Source of the DNA: SAR86 cluster bacterium
GTDB taxonomy: Bacteria; Pseudomonadota; Gammaproteobacteria; Magnimaribacterales; TMED112
Length of the DNA: 64,000 nt
NCBI GenBank assembly: GCA_003331605.1
Contig: QOPD01000002.1
Coordinates: 54,188 to 118,187 of the forward strand
Direction: 5' to 3'
The notes under the pieces are model-generated. The model saw nothing but the letters and a program-made list of their open reading frames with translations. It had not been told where the DNA came from and made no database searches. A program made the translations under genes and the position numbers. Below are positions 16,439 to 31,420 of this stretch, one piece after another. Each line of letters starts with the position of its first letter. The first letter of the stretch is position 1.

Positions 16439-16768
16439 CCGAGTTGGTCGAGCTATCGCTTAATTTTTAAGAGGAAAGTCCGGACTTCAAAGAGCAAGGT
16501 GCCAGCTAACAGCTGGGGAGCGTGAGCTTACGGATAGTGCAGCAGAAAATATACCGCCATTTTGGTAAGGGTGAAAAGGTAAGGTAAGAGCTTACCGCTC
16601 AAACGAAAGTTTGAGGCAGTGCAAACCCCACTTGAAGCAATGCCAAGTAGAGATTAAATTGTGTTGCTCGCACATAATCAGGGTAGGCAGCATGAATGTT
16701 TTGGTGACAAAACATCAAGATAAATGATAGCTAAAAACAGAATCCGGCTTATAGACCAACTCGATTCT
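16439..16768 (+). ncRNA. rnpB: RNase P RNA, bacterial type A
   Basis: This is the catalytic RNA that matures tRNA 5' ends. The ends pair as helix P1 (CGAGTTGGTC at 16440 with GACCAACTCG ending at 16763). Conserved core segments are present in order: GAGGAAAGTCCGGAC, AAGGTGCCAG, AGTGCAGCAGAAA, CCGCC, GGTAAGGGTGAAAAGGT, GGTAAGAGCTTACCGC, CAGTGCAAACCCC, CAAGTAG, GGGTAGGC, GATAAATGATAG, ACAGAATCCGGCTTAT. The length of about 330 nt fits type A. The rsmI-rnpB order is known from other gammaproteobacteria such as Pseudomonas. ftsZ starts about 20 bp downstream and I see no terminator between. Exact ends are uncertain by a few bases. Confidence 0.95.
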
Positions 16769-16786: not shown

Positions 16787-17881
16787 ATGACATGGCAAAT
16801 TCTTGATTCTAATTACGAGCAAGCAAAAATCGCAGTTATAGGAATTGGAGGCGGAGGCGGAAATGCTATTCAGCACATGATAAGTTCAGGCATAAAAGGC
16901 GTTGAGTTTATATGTGCAAATACTGATTCTCAAGCTTTAAGTATGATACATAATGCTAAAACTATTAAGCTTGGCAACGACTTAACTAAAGGGCTTGGAG
17001 CAGGCAATAACCCTGAAGTTGGGAAGCAAGCCACAGAACTTAGCCGTCAAGAGATTATTGACAACCTTGCTAATACTGAAATGTTATTTATTGCAGCTGG
17101 AATGGGGGGTGGTACTGGCACTGGAGGGGCACCAGTAATTGCAAAGATCGCCAAGGAATTAAATATCCTTACAGTTGCGGTAGTAACAACTCCATTTAAA
17201 ACAGAAGGTCAGAAACGAGCCAGTCAGGCAAAAAATGGAATTTCAAGTTTAATAGAAAATGTAGACTCTCTTATTGAAGTTGACAATGAAAAAGTTTTTG
17301 AAATCTTTCCTCCAGAAACTCCAATAGAAAAAGCATTTACAAAAGTAAATGATGTCTTAATGAATGCGGTTAAAGGCGTTGCAAATATAGTTTTGAAGCC
17401 TTCAAAAATAAATGTGGATTTTGCAGATGTTTTAGCTGTAATGTCACAAAAAGGGATGGCACTAATGGGGTATGGTTCTGCAGATGGAGAAGATAGAGCA
17501 CCTAAGGCTATTTATGAAGCATTGAATAATCCTTTTTTTGACAGAAACGAAGTTAAAAATGCAAAAGGGTTGCTGGTAAATGTTTGTGCTTCATCCAGCA
17601 TTACACAGAAAGAACTTAGAGATATTCTTGAGGAAGCTTCATCTATTGGGCAAGATGGCGTAGAGGCAATTCCTGGATTAACCATTGACGAATCCTTCGG
17701 AAATACTATTAGTGTAATAATTATAGCTACTGGCTTAAGGAGATTTAATTTAGGTGACTTTCAAAGACCTAAAGTTTTTACAACAAGAGCAAACAATGAA
17801 AATTTAAGTGATGACTTCCTAGATCTTGATCAGTTAAAAAGAGCAAACCTTAGTGAAGTTTTAGGGAGATTAAAAAATTAA
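16787..17881 (+). CDS. ftsZ: Cell division GTPase FtsZ, displaced to head of dcw cluster
   Basis: FtsZ is the tubulin homologue that forms the Z ring. The 364-residue protein has GIGGGGGNAI (near residue 20), ANTDSQAL, the GTP-binding signature GGGTGTG in AAGMGGGTGTGGAP (near 105), and the T7 loop NVDFADV. The C-terminal conserved peptide is unusual: DDFLDLDQLKRANLSEVLGRLKN has no IPAFLR-like core. In most gammaproteobacteria ftsZ follows ftsA. Here it sits between rnpB and rsmH, where mraZ normally lies, and ftsA is followed by rpsF. The start gives the expected short N terminus. A TATATATG stretch upstream could hold a weak promoter, otherwise it may be read through from rsmI/rnpB. Confidence 0.97.
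   Translation: MTWQILDSNYEQAKIAVIGIGGGGGNAIQHMISSGIKGVEFICANTDSQALSMIHNAKTIKLGNDLTKGLGAGNNPEVGKQATELSRQEIIDNLANTEMLFIAAGMGGGTGTGGAPVIAKIAKELNILTVAVVTTPFKTEGQKRASQAKNGISSLIENVDSLIEVDNEKVFEIFPPETPIEKAFTKVNDVLMNAVKGVANIVLKPSKINVDFADVLAVMSQKGMALMGYGSADGEDRAPKAIYEALNNPFFDRNEVKNAKGLLVNVCASSSITQKELRDILEEASSIGQDGVEAIPGLTIDESFGNTISVIIIATGLRRFNLGDFQRPKVFTTRANNENLSDDFLDLDQLKRANLSEVLGRLKN
17863..17868 (+). promoter_or_regulatory. Shine-Dalgarno sequence for the ATT start of rsmH
   Basis: AGGGAG lies inside the last codons of ftsZ and ends 8 bases before ATT 17877. This is good spacing and one of the stronger Shine-Dalgarno matches in the cluster. It supports the non-canonical rsmH start, since no ATG, GTG or TTG in the rsmH frame is near it. 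The only nearby ATG (17884) is in another frame and closes after nine codons. Confidence 0.65.
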
Positions 17882-18770
17882 ACATGTTCCAGTTTTATTC
17901 AATAAGGCTGTAGAAAGTCTAGTTCAAAATGCTGATGGCAATTATGTTGACTGCACATTTGGACAAGGAGGTCATTCAAAAGAAATACTGCGTACACTTA
18001 GCTCTAAAGGAAATTTAAATGCATTTGATTTAGATGAGCTTGCTGAAGTTGAGGCTAAGAAAATTAAAAACCCAAATTTCTCCTTCCATAAAACTAATTT
18101 TAAAAACATAGGAGATTACTTTAATGATGATGAACTAGATGGGATTCTTATTGATTGTGGTGTTTCATCTCCACAAATTGATGAACCTTCTCGAGGCTTT
18201 AGCTTCATGAGGGATGGACCACTAGATATGCGATTTGGAAAACAGGTGAAGTTGTCCTGCGAAAGTATCATAAATAATTATGCTTACAAAGATCTTGTAA
18301 GGATTTTTAAAGAGTATGGGGAAGAGACTGAATCTAAGAGAATCGCTAGAGAAATTGTAGCCAAAAGAGAACAAGATAGAATTATCTCAACCAAACAGTT
18401 ATCAAACCTTATAGAAAATATAAAAAAAATTAAAACTAAAAAAAATCCCTCCACTAAGGTATTTCAAGCTTTAAGGATGGAGGTTAATCAGGAGCTTGAT
18501 AACTTAAAAATATGCCTTAGCAGGGCAAAGAGACTTTTAAAGAAGAATGGGAGGTTGGTTGTTATTTCTTTCCATTCTCTTGAAGATCGGATTGTAAAGA
18601 ATTATTTTAAAACGGAAGAACGGCTACACGAAAAAGACATACCATTATTAAGTGAACAGGTGCAAAAAAAGAAATTTTTAGTAAGCAGTGTGATCACACC
18701 GGAGGAGTCTGAATTAGTTTCAAATGTAAGAGCAAGAAGTGCAAAAATGAGAGTAGTGACAAAATTATGA
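17877..18770 (+). CDS. rsmH: 16S rRNA (cytosine1402-N4)-methyltransferase RsmH, ATT start
   Basis: RsmH N4-methylates C1402 in the P site. The ORF track gives only 187 residues from ATG 18207, but that would remove the SAM-binding region. Upstream in frame the sequence reads KHVPVLF, then DCTFGQGGHSKEIL and LIDCGVSSPQID, all canonical RsmH. The frame opens after a TAA at 17871, and the only plausible initiator before HVPVLF is ATT 17877, giving 297 residues (E. coli 313) and the normal M-K-H-V-P-V start. It overlaps the end of ftsZ by 5 bp. Downstream motifs RGFSFMRDGPLDMRF, FQALRMEVNQEL and VISFHSLEDRIVK are intact. Start-codon identity is inference; the gene identity is certain. Confidence 0.9.
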   Translation: MKHVPVLFNKAVESLVQNADGNYVDCTFGQGGHSKEILRTLSSKGNLNAFDLDELAEVEAKKIKNPNFSFHKTNFKNIGDYFNDDELDGILIDCGVSSPQIDEPSRGFSFMRDGPLDMRFGKQVKLSCESIINNYAYKDLVRIFKEYGEETESKRIAREIVAKREQDRIISTKQLSNLIENIKKIKTKKNPSTKVFQALRMEVNQELDNLKICLSRAKRLLKKNGRLVVISFHSLEDRIVKNYFKTEERLHEKDIPLLSEQVQKKKFLVSSVITPEESELVSNVRARSAKMRVVTKL

Positions 18771-28737: not shown

Positions 28738-29612
28738 GAAAAATAATTATTGTTTATGGTGGTGAATCCAATGAAAGTGACATCTCCAAAAAAACTGCTC
28801 AGTCAATCTTTGAAAATATAGATAGATCACAATTTCTTCCACATTTAATAAACTATTCAAGTATCAATTTTGATGAGTATGATCAAGATTGTTTTTTCTT
28901 TATCGCTATTCATGGCAAAGGTGGAGAGGACGGTGAAATTCAGGAAATTCTTGAAAGTAGAAAATTTGTTTTTTCAGGATCAGGATCAGCGGCAACAAAA
29001 AAATGTTGGAATAAAAAAATTTCAAAAAGGCTAATGGAAGAAAATCAAATACCAACACCAAAATTTATAGTTTGCTCAAACGAAATTGACCTTCAAAACG
29101 AGTTTATTCTCTCAGAAAAAAAATTCTTTATAAAACCTGCTACCAATGGCTCAAGTTTTGGAGTAACAAAGGTTGAAGATAAGGCAAATATCAATAAGGC
29201 CATAAGTGAAGCACTATCCTATTCAGAAGAGGTAATTATTGAAAAGGCTTTTTCTGGCCCTGAGTATACTGTCTCTGTACTAGGGTCAGATATTCTTCCT
29301 CCATTGGAAATAATCCCATATGGAAATGAATTCTATAATTTTTCTGCTAAATATAGCTCTAATGAAACAAAAAAAATCATGGTAACTGATCCACAAATAA
29401 GAGGAGAGCTTAGCGAAATTGCCTATAAAGCCTTTCATGCTCATGGCTGCTCTTCGTGGGCTAGAATTGATATTGTTTCAGAGGATGATAATTTTAGTGT
29501 TCTAGAAATAAATACCGTACCAGGATTTACAGAGAAAAGCCTATTTCCCTTCTCAGCAAAACTTGCTGGCATAGACTATAAAGAATTAATAACTAGGATA
29601 ATTGAAAATTAA
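28734..29612 (+). CDS. ddl: D-alanine-D-alanine ligase
   Basis: Ddl makes the D-Ala-D-Ala dipeptide used by MurF; alr at 33.7 kb supplies D-Ala. The 292-residue ATP-grasp protein has YGGESNESDISKKTA at the N terminus, IHGKGGEDGEIQ, FIKPATNGSSFGV, and the metal site ARIDIVSEDDNFSVLEINTVPGFTEKS. It is slightly short (E. coli DdlB 306). Overlaps murC by 4 bp and ftsQ by 11 bp. Confidence 0.95.
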   Translation: MRKIIIVYGGESNESDISKKTAQSIFENIDRSQFLPHLINYSSINFDEYDQDCFFFIAIHGKGGEDGEIQEILESRKFVFSGSGSAATKKCWNKKISKRLMEENQIPTPKFIVCSNEIDLQNEFILSEKKFFIKPATNGSSFGVTKVEDKANINKAISEALSYSEEVIIEKAFSGPEYTVSVLGSDILPPLEIIPYGNEFYNFSAKYSSNETKKIMVTDPQIRGELSEIAYKAFHAHGCSSWARIDIVSEDDNFSVLEINTVPGFTEKSLFPFSAKLAGIDYKELITRIIEN

Positions 29613-30228
29613 ATTTCATAGTTTCATATTCTTGTTGGTGGCCGTTCTTCAATCTTATCAGTTGAACACAAAGGATAAATTTTCAACTGTGCTTTATGTG
29701 CAAAATGAAAGTATTTGTTCAGATTGTATACTTCAGTTAAAAAATCACTTTTACAAATACCCAAAAAATTTTGAAATATTTTTATCAACCAAGAGCTGGG
29801 TGAGAAGCTACTTTATTAGTTCGACTCATAATCTGCAAACCTACCACGTTATTATCAAAGAACCCTTTGTAAAGAAATCTGAGGGAATCTACTTTGATAC
29901 AAATTTAAATTTATTTCATCTCCCCTTTAATGGAAAACTGCCATCTTTTGATTTTGAAGATGCATTAACTAAAGAGGATATTGCGGAGCTTAACCAAATT
30001 CTAAATCTGAAATTAACTCAACACCTTTTGCATATTGCATGGACAAAAATGTTTGGGTGGGAGCTTACTTATAATTTCGGGGTAGTTTTAATTGGGAAGA
30101 AAAATTTTATTAAAAAAATAAGTAAGCTAGAAAAAATACTTGAAGAAAAATGTTGCGATGAGTTGAACAGGGTAATTCTGGATTTAAGATATGACAAAGG
30201 CTATGTAATAAAGAAGCTTGATGTTTAA
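29602..30228 (+). CDS. ftsQ: Cell division protein FtsQ, divergent and short
   Basis: FtsQ recruits FtsL and FtsB to the divisome. The 208-residue product begins at TTG 29602, inside the end of ddl. It has an N-terminal membrane helix (about residues 6-20) and a periplasmic region ending in LDLRYDKGYVIK, like the DLRY-containing C-terminal motif of FtsQ. E. coli FtsQ has 276 residues; the cytoplasmic N-terminal part is almost absent and the POTRA region is divergent, with unusual cysteines (ICSDC, EKCCDE). Identity depends on the C-terminal motif and on position between ddl and ftsA. Confidence 0.85.
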   Translation: MKIKFHSFIFLLVAVLQSYQLNTKDKFSTVLYVQNESICSDCILQLKNHFYKYPKNFEIFLSTKSWVRSYFISSTHNLQTYHVIIKEPFVKKSEGIYFDTNLNLFHLPFNGKLPSFDFEDALTKEDIAELNQILNLKLTQHLLHIAWTKMFGWELTYNFGVVLIGKKNFIKKISKLEKILEEKCCDELNRVILDLRYDKGYVIKKLDV

Positions 30229-31420
30229 TATAATTGATCTTGGCACCTCAAAAATAACAGGTATCACTGTAAAAGAATCCAATGGCATGCAAAAAGTGGT
30301 TGGCTTTTCATCAAAATCTACTGCTGGATTAAAAAAAGGCTCCATCATTAATATAACTGAGACTTCAAAGACGATTGCAGAAGTTATAGAGGACCTTCAG
30401 AATCAATCTGGAGAAAATATTAGAGTCGTTGATGTTTCTTTTTCTGGTGAGCTTATATCGAGCACAAATTCTACAGGTCTGGCAACAATTAGTGACAAAG
30501 AGGTTTCTGTTAAAGATCAGCAATCTGCACTGCAAACATCAATTGCAATGAATGTTCCGGGTGATAAAGAATTGCTGAATGTTGTTCCATCTCAATATAT
30601 TATTGATGGCCAGCCGGGAATTAAGGAACCAAAGGGTATGACTGGAGTAAGATTAGAAGTTAGAACTCATCTGGTGTATTGCTCAAAGAACTCAATAAGC
30701 AACATTAGTAAATGTATAGAGGAGATTAATGGACTGCAAATTAATAAATTCTATTTTAATCAATTAGGTGCAGCAAAATGCACTCTTTCTGATGATCAAA
30801 TAGATTTAGGGGTTTGCCTATTAGATATTGGTGCAGGAACAACTGATTTGACTGTCTTTAAAAATGGCTCACTGATATTTTCTAAAGTTCTGCCATATGC
30901 TGGAGATTACATAACAGAATCAATTGCTATAGCATTAAAAATTCCATCATCTCAGGCAGAGGAGCTCAAGAAGAGATATGGTTCATCTATCTCAGATAGA
31001 GTTGCTGACGAATCGCTAAAGATTAATGGCATAGGTGGAGAAACTGATTTCAAGATTTCTAAAAGGATGCTGTGTGAAGTAATTGAGCAATCTATCTCTA
31101 ATATCTTTCGTTCCTGCATGGGGTGCATTGAAGAAAATGGTCTTCAAGACTCTATTCCAGCAGGGTTTATTTTGAGTGGAGGCACTGCAAACCTAGAGAA
31201 CATCGAGGAATTAGGTTCAGCTATAACGCAAAATTCCTTCAAAATAGGCTATCCAGAGAATGAGCCACCATTAAAAAGTGAAAAATTAATTAAGCCTCAA
31301 TATGGAGCTCCATTAGGCATGGTTAAATTTTGTGCTGAAGAACAGAATAAAGAGTTTACCTTTAATCAAAGCAAGGGTATTATAGCCCGAGTGCTTGATT
31401 GGCTTAAATCGGAAATGTAA
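30221..31420 (+). CDS. ftsA: Cell division actin-like protein FtsA
   Basis: FtsA tethers FtsZ filaments to the membrane. ATG 30221 is preferred to the adjoining TTG. The 399-residue protein has IIDLGTSKITGI at the N terminus, the GMTGVRLEVRTHLV region, LDIGAGTTDLTVF, SGGTANLENI and a C-terminal amphipathic helix (GIIARVLDWLKSEM) that should be the membrane-targeting sequence. It overlaps ftsQ by 8 bp. Unusually, the next gene is rpsF, sharing one base with the ftsA stop; ftsZ and lpxC do not follow. Confidence 0.96.
   Translation: MFNIIDLGTSKITGITVKESNGMQKVVGFSSKSTAGLKKGSIINITETSKTIAEVIEDLQNQSGENIRVVDVSFSGELISSTNSTGLATISDKEVSVKDQQSALQTSIAMNVPGDKELLNVVPSQYIIDGQPGIKEPKGMTGVRLEVRTHLVYCSKNSISNISKCIEEINGLQINKFYFNQLGAAKCTLSDDQIDLGVCLLDIGAGTTDLTVFKNGSLIFSKVLPYAGDYITESIAIALKIPSSQAEELKKRYGSSISDRVADESLKINGIGGETDFKISKRMLCEVIEQSISNIFRSCMGCIEENGLQDSIPAGFILSGGTANLENIEELGSAITQNSFKIGYPENEPPLKSEKLIKPQYGAPLGMVKFCAEEQNKEFTFNQSKGIIARVLDWLKSEM

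Follow-up and report, generated by a model that had tools for sequence, protein, structure and literature searches.

How does a bacterial gene begin translation when its frame offers no ATG, GTG or TTG ahead of the conserved N-terminus, and does it matter that scarcity of its product would leave C1402 of the ribosome under-methylated? Both questions are raised by rsmH (mraW) in a stretch of 64,000 nucleotides from a SAR86 cluster bacterium (GenBank assembly GCA_003331605.1, contig QOPD01000002.1, positions 54,188 to 118,187 of the forward strand), hereafter called the window, whose genome of 0.94 Mb belongs to a marine SAR86 genus with tiny genomes. A first-pass annotation of this DNA proposed that rsmH starts at ATT and that this start could close a feedback loop through start-codon fidelity. 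We find the first part well founded and offer a simpler account for the second: rsmH is probably a functional gene that starts at AUU 17877 by means of a Shine-Dalgarno (SD) sequence lying in ftsZ, most likely through coupled reinitiation, with a codon trapped by its neighbour and a likely low output of RsmH.

The rsmH reading frame

Re-reading of the letters agrees with the first-pass annotation on the frame itself, which opens after a TAA, continues with AAA, ATT, AAA, CAT, GTT and CCA, and holds no ATG, GTG or TTG until position 18207 (Table 1). From ATT the translation runs IKHVPVLF...CTFGQGGHS...DCGVSSP. It matches TIGR00006 with 320.7 bits (cut-off 154.3) over positions 6-309 and PF01795 with 317.2 bits over residues 2-296, and the E. 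coli RsmH structure 3tka aligns with it from residue 2, with KHVPVLF...GQGGHS in frame. Both family matches extend over the part upstream of 18207, which is therefore genuinely coding. Between genomes G000 and G008, moreover, codons 61-110 differ by 18 synonymous and 5 replacement changes. Judged by these comparisons, the window protein appears to be a full-length member of the RsmH/MraW family that carries the N-terminal SAM-binding motif. The prediction that gene callers limited to canonical starts would cut the protein to 187 residues is borne out by the mechanical list of open reading frames, which gives precisely that length from the ATG at 18207.

Table 1. Positions of the features discussed, in window coordinates except for pyrD.
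Feature	Position	Strand	Remarks
rsmI, 2′-O-methyltransferase partner for C1402	15594..16427	+	PF00590
RNase P RNA (rnpB)	16440..16767	+	between rsmI and ftsZ; RF00010, 313.3 bits
ftsZ	16787..17881	+	PF00091, PF12327; joined directly to rsmH
Shine-Dalgarno AGGGAG	17863..17868	+	within ftsZ coding sequence; spacer of 8 nt; anti-SD pairing predicted at -8.9 kcal/mol
In-frame stop TAA 5′ of rsmH	17871..17873	+	excludes an upstream start in the rsmH frame
rsmH (mraW) CDS read from ATT	17877..18770	+	297 codons and stop; TIGR00006, PF01795, 3tka alignment
Proposed AUU start codon of rsmH	17877..17879	+	sole near-cognate codon between in-frame stop and conserved KHxPV
ftsZ stop TAA, overlapping third base of AUU start (ATTAA)	17879..17881	+	found at +2, counted from the ATT, in all 16 genomes
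First canonical in-frame rsmH start (ATG)	18207..18209	+	would give a truncated 187-aa product without SAM motif I
pyrD loci with ATT (17) or ATC (1) start	L174:14210-15181		G000 contig C11; also L185-L199, L204

The neighbourhood was also described correctly in that rsmI lies about 1.4 kb upstream of rsmH, an identity which we take from its sequence and from established knowledge of the family. Between 15594 and 31420 the window holds a cluster of division and cell wall genes in rearranged order (rsmI, RNase P RNA, ftsZ, rsmH, ftsL, ftsI, murE, murF, mraY, murD, ftsW, murG, murC, ddl, a ftsQ-like gene and ftsA), in which the gene names other than ftsZ, rsmH and rsmI come from reading the translations. 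Here ftsZ sits before rsmH and not after ftsA, and there is no mraZ 5′ of rsmH. In the mechanical list ftsA (30218-31420) and the ftsQ-like gene (29602-30228) have TTG starts.

Conservation of the AUU start in the genus

The first-pass annotation had reckoned with relatives carrying an ATG at the same junction, or with an error in the letters. Within the genus the ATT was upheld: 16 of the 21 genomes sampled gave an rsmH match, and every one of them reads ATTAA[A/G]CA[T/C] at the homologous ftsZ/rsmH junction, including two single-contig genomes (G007 and G013), which rules out a one-off or a sequence error. All 16 also place the ftsZ stop at +2, and in each the rsmH frame is closed by a stop codon that lies one to five codons before the ATT; in nine of them this second stop is only one codon away, so that nothing but AAA-like codons, ATT, AAA/AAG and CAT precedes the conserved residues. 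RsmH itself has diverged to a pairwise identity of 45-94% (median 54%) across these genomes, which form a single branch of the tree against the other SAR86 families, with a support of 100/98. A contig search of another collection added one close relative with an RsmH 81% identical.

Outside the genus the picture is a different one. In the sister family f3, ftsZ is also found 5′ of rsmH and an ATG that aligns with the ATT of the genus follows a few bases after the ftsZ stop (for example GATTAAAATGCTTCAT), whereas families f4 and f2 have a different upstream gene and an rsmH that starts with ATG or TTG. Among the sister-family sequences sampled, AUU is absent at rsmH, and most show ATG there. 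When 203 genomes of the SAR86 order were searched for the ATT-Lys-His junction, the 13 matches all fell in the genus, with none among the 182 other SAR86 genomes; a class-wide search with a junction pattern gave 0 of 369, a figure of little weight since the same pattern misses the window's own genome. Possible later starts do occur in three members, an ATG at codon 7 of rsmH in G008 and a TTG at codons 7-8 in G001 and G007, where a slightly shortened product is possible. Altogether, the comparison strongly supports the AUU start of rsmH as a real lineage trait, which most simply would have arisen once, on the stem of the genus, through a short deletion just after the ftsZ stop.

The ftsZ overlap and the Shine-Dalgarno sequence

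A feature absent from the first-pass annotation is that the last T of the rsmH ATT is at the same time the first T of the ftsZ stop (the end of ftsZ in the window reads ...GTTTTAGGGAGATTAAAAAATTAAACATGTTCCAGTT...). Because this base is shared, an ATG at the start of rsmH is not possible without loss of that stop: in the window TAA would become GAA and FtsZ would gain eight residues. The other two letters are likewise bound by ftsZ, as part of its final Asn or Asp codon. As the conservation of ATT is in this way partly forced by ftsZ, the argument for an AUU start rests on the SD sequence, the frame and the absence of alternatives more than on the letters themselves.

The SD sequence AGGGAG and its spacer stand in the window just as originally described. 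Its predicted pairing of -8.9 kcal/mol compares with -0.9 kcal/mol for the median start and is equalled, in two related genomes, by 4% of starts. An SD sequence with a spacer of 6-9 nt lies upstream of the ATT in 16/16 genomes, where the predicted pairing at rsmH falls among the top 0.2-16% of starts; in the AT-rich genomes of this genus an SD match of at least 5 nt is found in only 12-13% of genes. These values assume the usual CCTCC as anti-SD; the 3′ end of the 16S rRNA was not found in the stretches searched. Moreover, in five genomes the GGAG within ftsZ owes its letters to CGG, a codon that makes up 0.9% of Arg codons, and this choice argues for selection on the SD sequence itself. No conserved mRNA structure was obvious by eye among single-sequence folds of the 16 junctions.

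A second near-cognate start at pyrD

Other genes of this kind were sought by comparing the closed genomes G013 and G007 in 789 non-overlapping reciprocal-best ORF pairs, of which the flagged ones were read by hand; 584 kb of the window's genome served as a third point of comparison. A gene that has a canonical start a little further downstream would escape this survey, as would anything in the 72 kb of G013 and 80 kb of G007 that lay outside it. Besides rsmH, only pyrD clearly lacked a canonical start before its conserved N-terminus. This gene begins with ATT-TAT in 17 of 18 genus genomes and with ATC-TAT in the other one, and in 14 of the 15 examined its start shares bases with the stop of the gene before it, which encodes a nucleotidyltransferase of family PF00483 (ATTTATAA). 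The motifs 5′ of pyrD are SD-like and of moderate strength (top 8-24%), and in family f3 the loci read have TTG after the upstream stop. In G008 the upstream stop lies at -4 and the overlap is gone; because ATT has stayed there all the same, overlap alone does not explain its retention.

The gene for IF3 offers a different picture. Most members of the genus apparently start infC with UUG (AATTTG before Arg; loci L036-L038 and L040-L049), and it is ruled out as a further AUU gene on that ground; in the window's genome and in G008 an ATT stands directly before the TTG and either could be the start, and no aligned start was established for G018 and G010. There was no sign of a special initiator tRNA: that of G013 carries the normal CAT anticodon on a GGG/CCC anticodon stem, and in the stretches scanned ARAGORN listed the usual three Met(CAT) tRNAs and no further one. 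Also noticed was a VTT-domain protein (PF09335; L076:17634-18173, minus strand, in G013, with an orthologue in G007) whose domain frame has no canonical start. In both genomes an out-of-frame ATG lies just upstream and leads into about ten consecutive A, which suggests that the two share a slippage by which the domain frame is regained, or else that another start is used.

How the AUU codon may be used, and why it is kept

We propose that the SD sequence in the last ftsZ codons would set ribosomes on AUU 17877, and that these would probably be, in the main, ribosomes fresh from termination at the ftsZ stop that overlaps this codon. A ribosome ending the upstream gene would already be on the SD sequence, with less need for codon-anticodon pairing. 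The stop-start overlap and the SD sequence within the upstream gene, by which a coupled pair is recognised, are found for ftsZ and rsmH in all 16 genomes; and because rsmH and pyrD share a near-cognate AUH start, an SD sequence in the upstream gene and an overlapping stop, we infer coupled initiation from this geometry, conceding that independent SD-led initiation would look the same. In our reading, what lets this genus get by with AUU and AUC starts would be an SD-led overlap of stop and start, at which translation of the second gene is coupled to that of the first. With a coupled reporter in E. coli, re-initiation was found to use initiator tRNA and IF2, to be cut by excess IF3 and to be aided by the SD sequence (PMC2268962). 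The rsmH codon would be trapped, for it shares its last base with the start of the ftsZ UAA and so has to end in U. Among codons of the form NNU, AUU alone retains the first two letters of AUG, and ATG would lead to readthrough of ftsZ. A low RsmH output, tied to FtsZ synthesis, is the likely outcome, expected because AUU gave about 10% of the output of AUG in S. aureus reporters (PMC13009471).

What else could account for such a junction? A sequencing error, a pseudogene or a truncated protein from ATG 18207 has next to no chance of being the answer. Callers restricted to ATG, GTG and TTG would indeed produce the short protein, but the junction is the same in 16 genomes, full-length RsmH is conserved, and the truncated form is ruled out by the conserved SAM motif I that lies upstream of 18207. 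We consider very improbable a programmed +1 frameshift near the ftsZ stop, which would yield an FtsZ-RsmH fusion with no AUU initiation at all. In its favour, rsmH does lie in frame +1 relative to ftsZ, a stimulatory role is conceivable for the SD-like site, and the window has a run of six A; the run is however missing in most relatives, and before its stop ftsZ closes with AAT or GAT, codons read by tRNAs that, by established decoding rules, re-pair poorly on ATT. The spacing of 6-9 nt suits initiation, whereas in RF2-type shifts it is about 3 nt. Lacking both a conserved slippery site and adequate re-pairing, a +1 frameshift or A-run slippage at rsmH was discarded.

The two remaining explanations concern the reason why AUU persists. 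It could be a neutral trap and nothing else, in which the ATG after the ftsZ stop was lost to a small deletion and the overlap has blocked repair ever since, with no regulatory benefit; we regard this as a serious possibility, though one that we lean against. GATTAA-xATG of f3 and GATTAA-ACAT of f1 are one small deletion apart, the ATG that would mend the start would abolish the ftsZ stop, and weak starts can persist for ordinary reasons, as seen between two members of the genus where UUG was kept in 33 of 42 orthologues and GUG in 19 of 36. Against it, repair by an inserted ATG codon or a shifted stop was open to all 16 species and is seen in none; at pyrD, exchange of one T for G would bring ATG back, with Leu becoming Val near the C-terminus of the upstream protein, and no genome has it, and the pyrD ATT of G008 survives with no overlap to hold it. 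The loop of the first-pass annotation, on the other hand, would have scarce RsmH leave C1402 under-methylated, AUU accepted more readily and rsmH translation raised, with ample RsmH repressing its own AUU, by analogy with IF3 and infC. The conserved start in the genus agrees with it and so does the sign of the effect, since a 2026 paper, citing earlier work, states that without MraW/RsmH or RsmI E. coli mis-initiates more often at AUU and is impaired in the use of GUG and UUG (PMC13317604). We nevertheless hold the loop to be unlikely. A conserved AUU/AUC start is shared by pyrD, which has no fidelity role, so that AUU is not reserved here for a fidelity gene; the overlap with the ftsZ stop already accounts for why ATG has not returned at rsmH; infC, the classical AUU-autoregulated gene, apparently has UUG in most of the genus; and the AUU of rsmH is absent from the other SAR86 families. 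Methylation of C1402 is moreover described as a late step of 30S assembly (PMC5053481), from which a feedback that is slow and diluted by existing ribosomes would be expected. Of the earlier interpretation, then, the AUU start stands on strong support, and the loop, plausible as it is, is not needed to explain the pattern, for which the overlap, pyrD and the UUG of infC give a simpler account. It seems to us quite doubtful that RsmH sets its own level through a property of the P site, with AUU kept because under-methylated ribosomes translate it better and pyrD derepressed too; were it true, C1402 methylation would be the switch of a small translational regulon (rsmH and pyrD) in this genus.

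Significance and comparison with known systems

Under our preferred account of an SD-led, probably coupled start, the genus would be a natural system for near-cognate starts in coupled translation. Bacterial AUU starts are few and mostly isolated cases, and here two of them, at rsmH and pyrD, have been kept across deep divergence in one genus. We found no description of such a genus-wide pair of AUU starts fused to upstream stops, or of AUU on rsmH, in the open-licence literature. Gene callers limited to ATG, GTG and TTG would truncate both RsmH and PyrD in these genomes. The C1402 feedback idea is, for its part, directly testable, the codon reported to be derepressed on RsmH loss being the very start of rsmH.

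AUU starts are established for infC and pcnB of E. coli, pncA of Borrelia and cvfC1 of S. aureus, and AUA starts for infC and ccpN of S. aureus, so that a conserved SD sequence combined with a rare start is a known design; rsmH shares with AUU genes the lack of any ATG, GTG or TTG that would give the conserved N-terminus, together with an AUU that is homologous and conserved (16/16). The infC gene of E. coli likewise has an SD-led AUU start and a product that acts on start-codon discrimination. Its feedback is experimental, as changing AUU to AUG abolishes autoregulation (Butler 1987, cited in PMC1780047), whereas the loop at rsmH is a proposal and its AUU is fused to an upstream stop. In pcnB of E. 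coli a weak AUU start limits expression (Binns and Masters 2002, cited in PMC1780047); the AUU start is shared with rsmH, while a stop-start overlap of this kind is not known from pcnB. The S. aureus genes cvfC1 (AUU), ccpN (AUA) and infC (AUA) have an extended SD sequence, and the start of cvfC1 is conserved across its genus (PMC13009471). They resemble rsmH in combining a non-canonical start with a strong SD sequence, but they are known from ribosome profiling and reporters and cvfC1 is first in its operon, whereas rsmH is joined to an upstream stop and known from sequence. In Borrelia burgdorferi the AUU start of pncA (BBE22) is proven, its essential N-terminus is obtained only from AUU, and databases list a truncated protein (PMC13398362); rsmH is alike in having an N-terminus reachable only from AUU, while pncA is a single gene with no proposed link to fidelity. 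The closest layout is that of the familiar stop-start overlaps ATGA and TAATG, where coupled re-initiation is likely; in this genus the overlaps read ATTAA at rsmH and ATTTATAA at pyrD, with a near-cognate codon in place of AUG.
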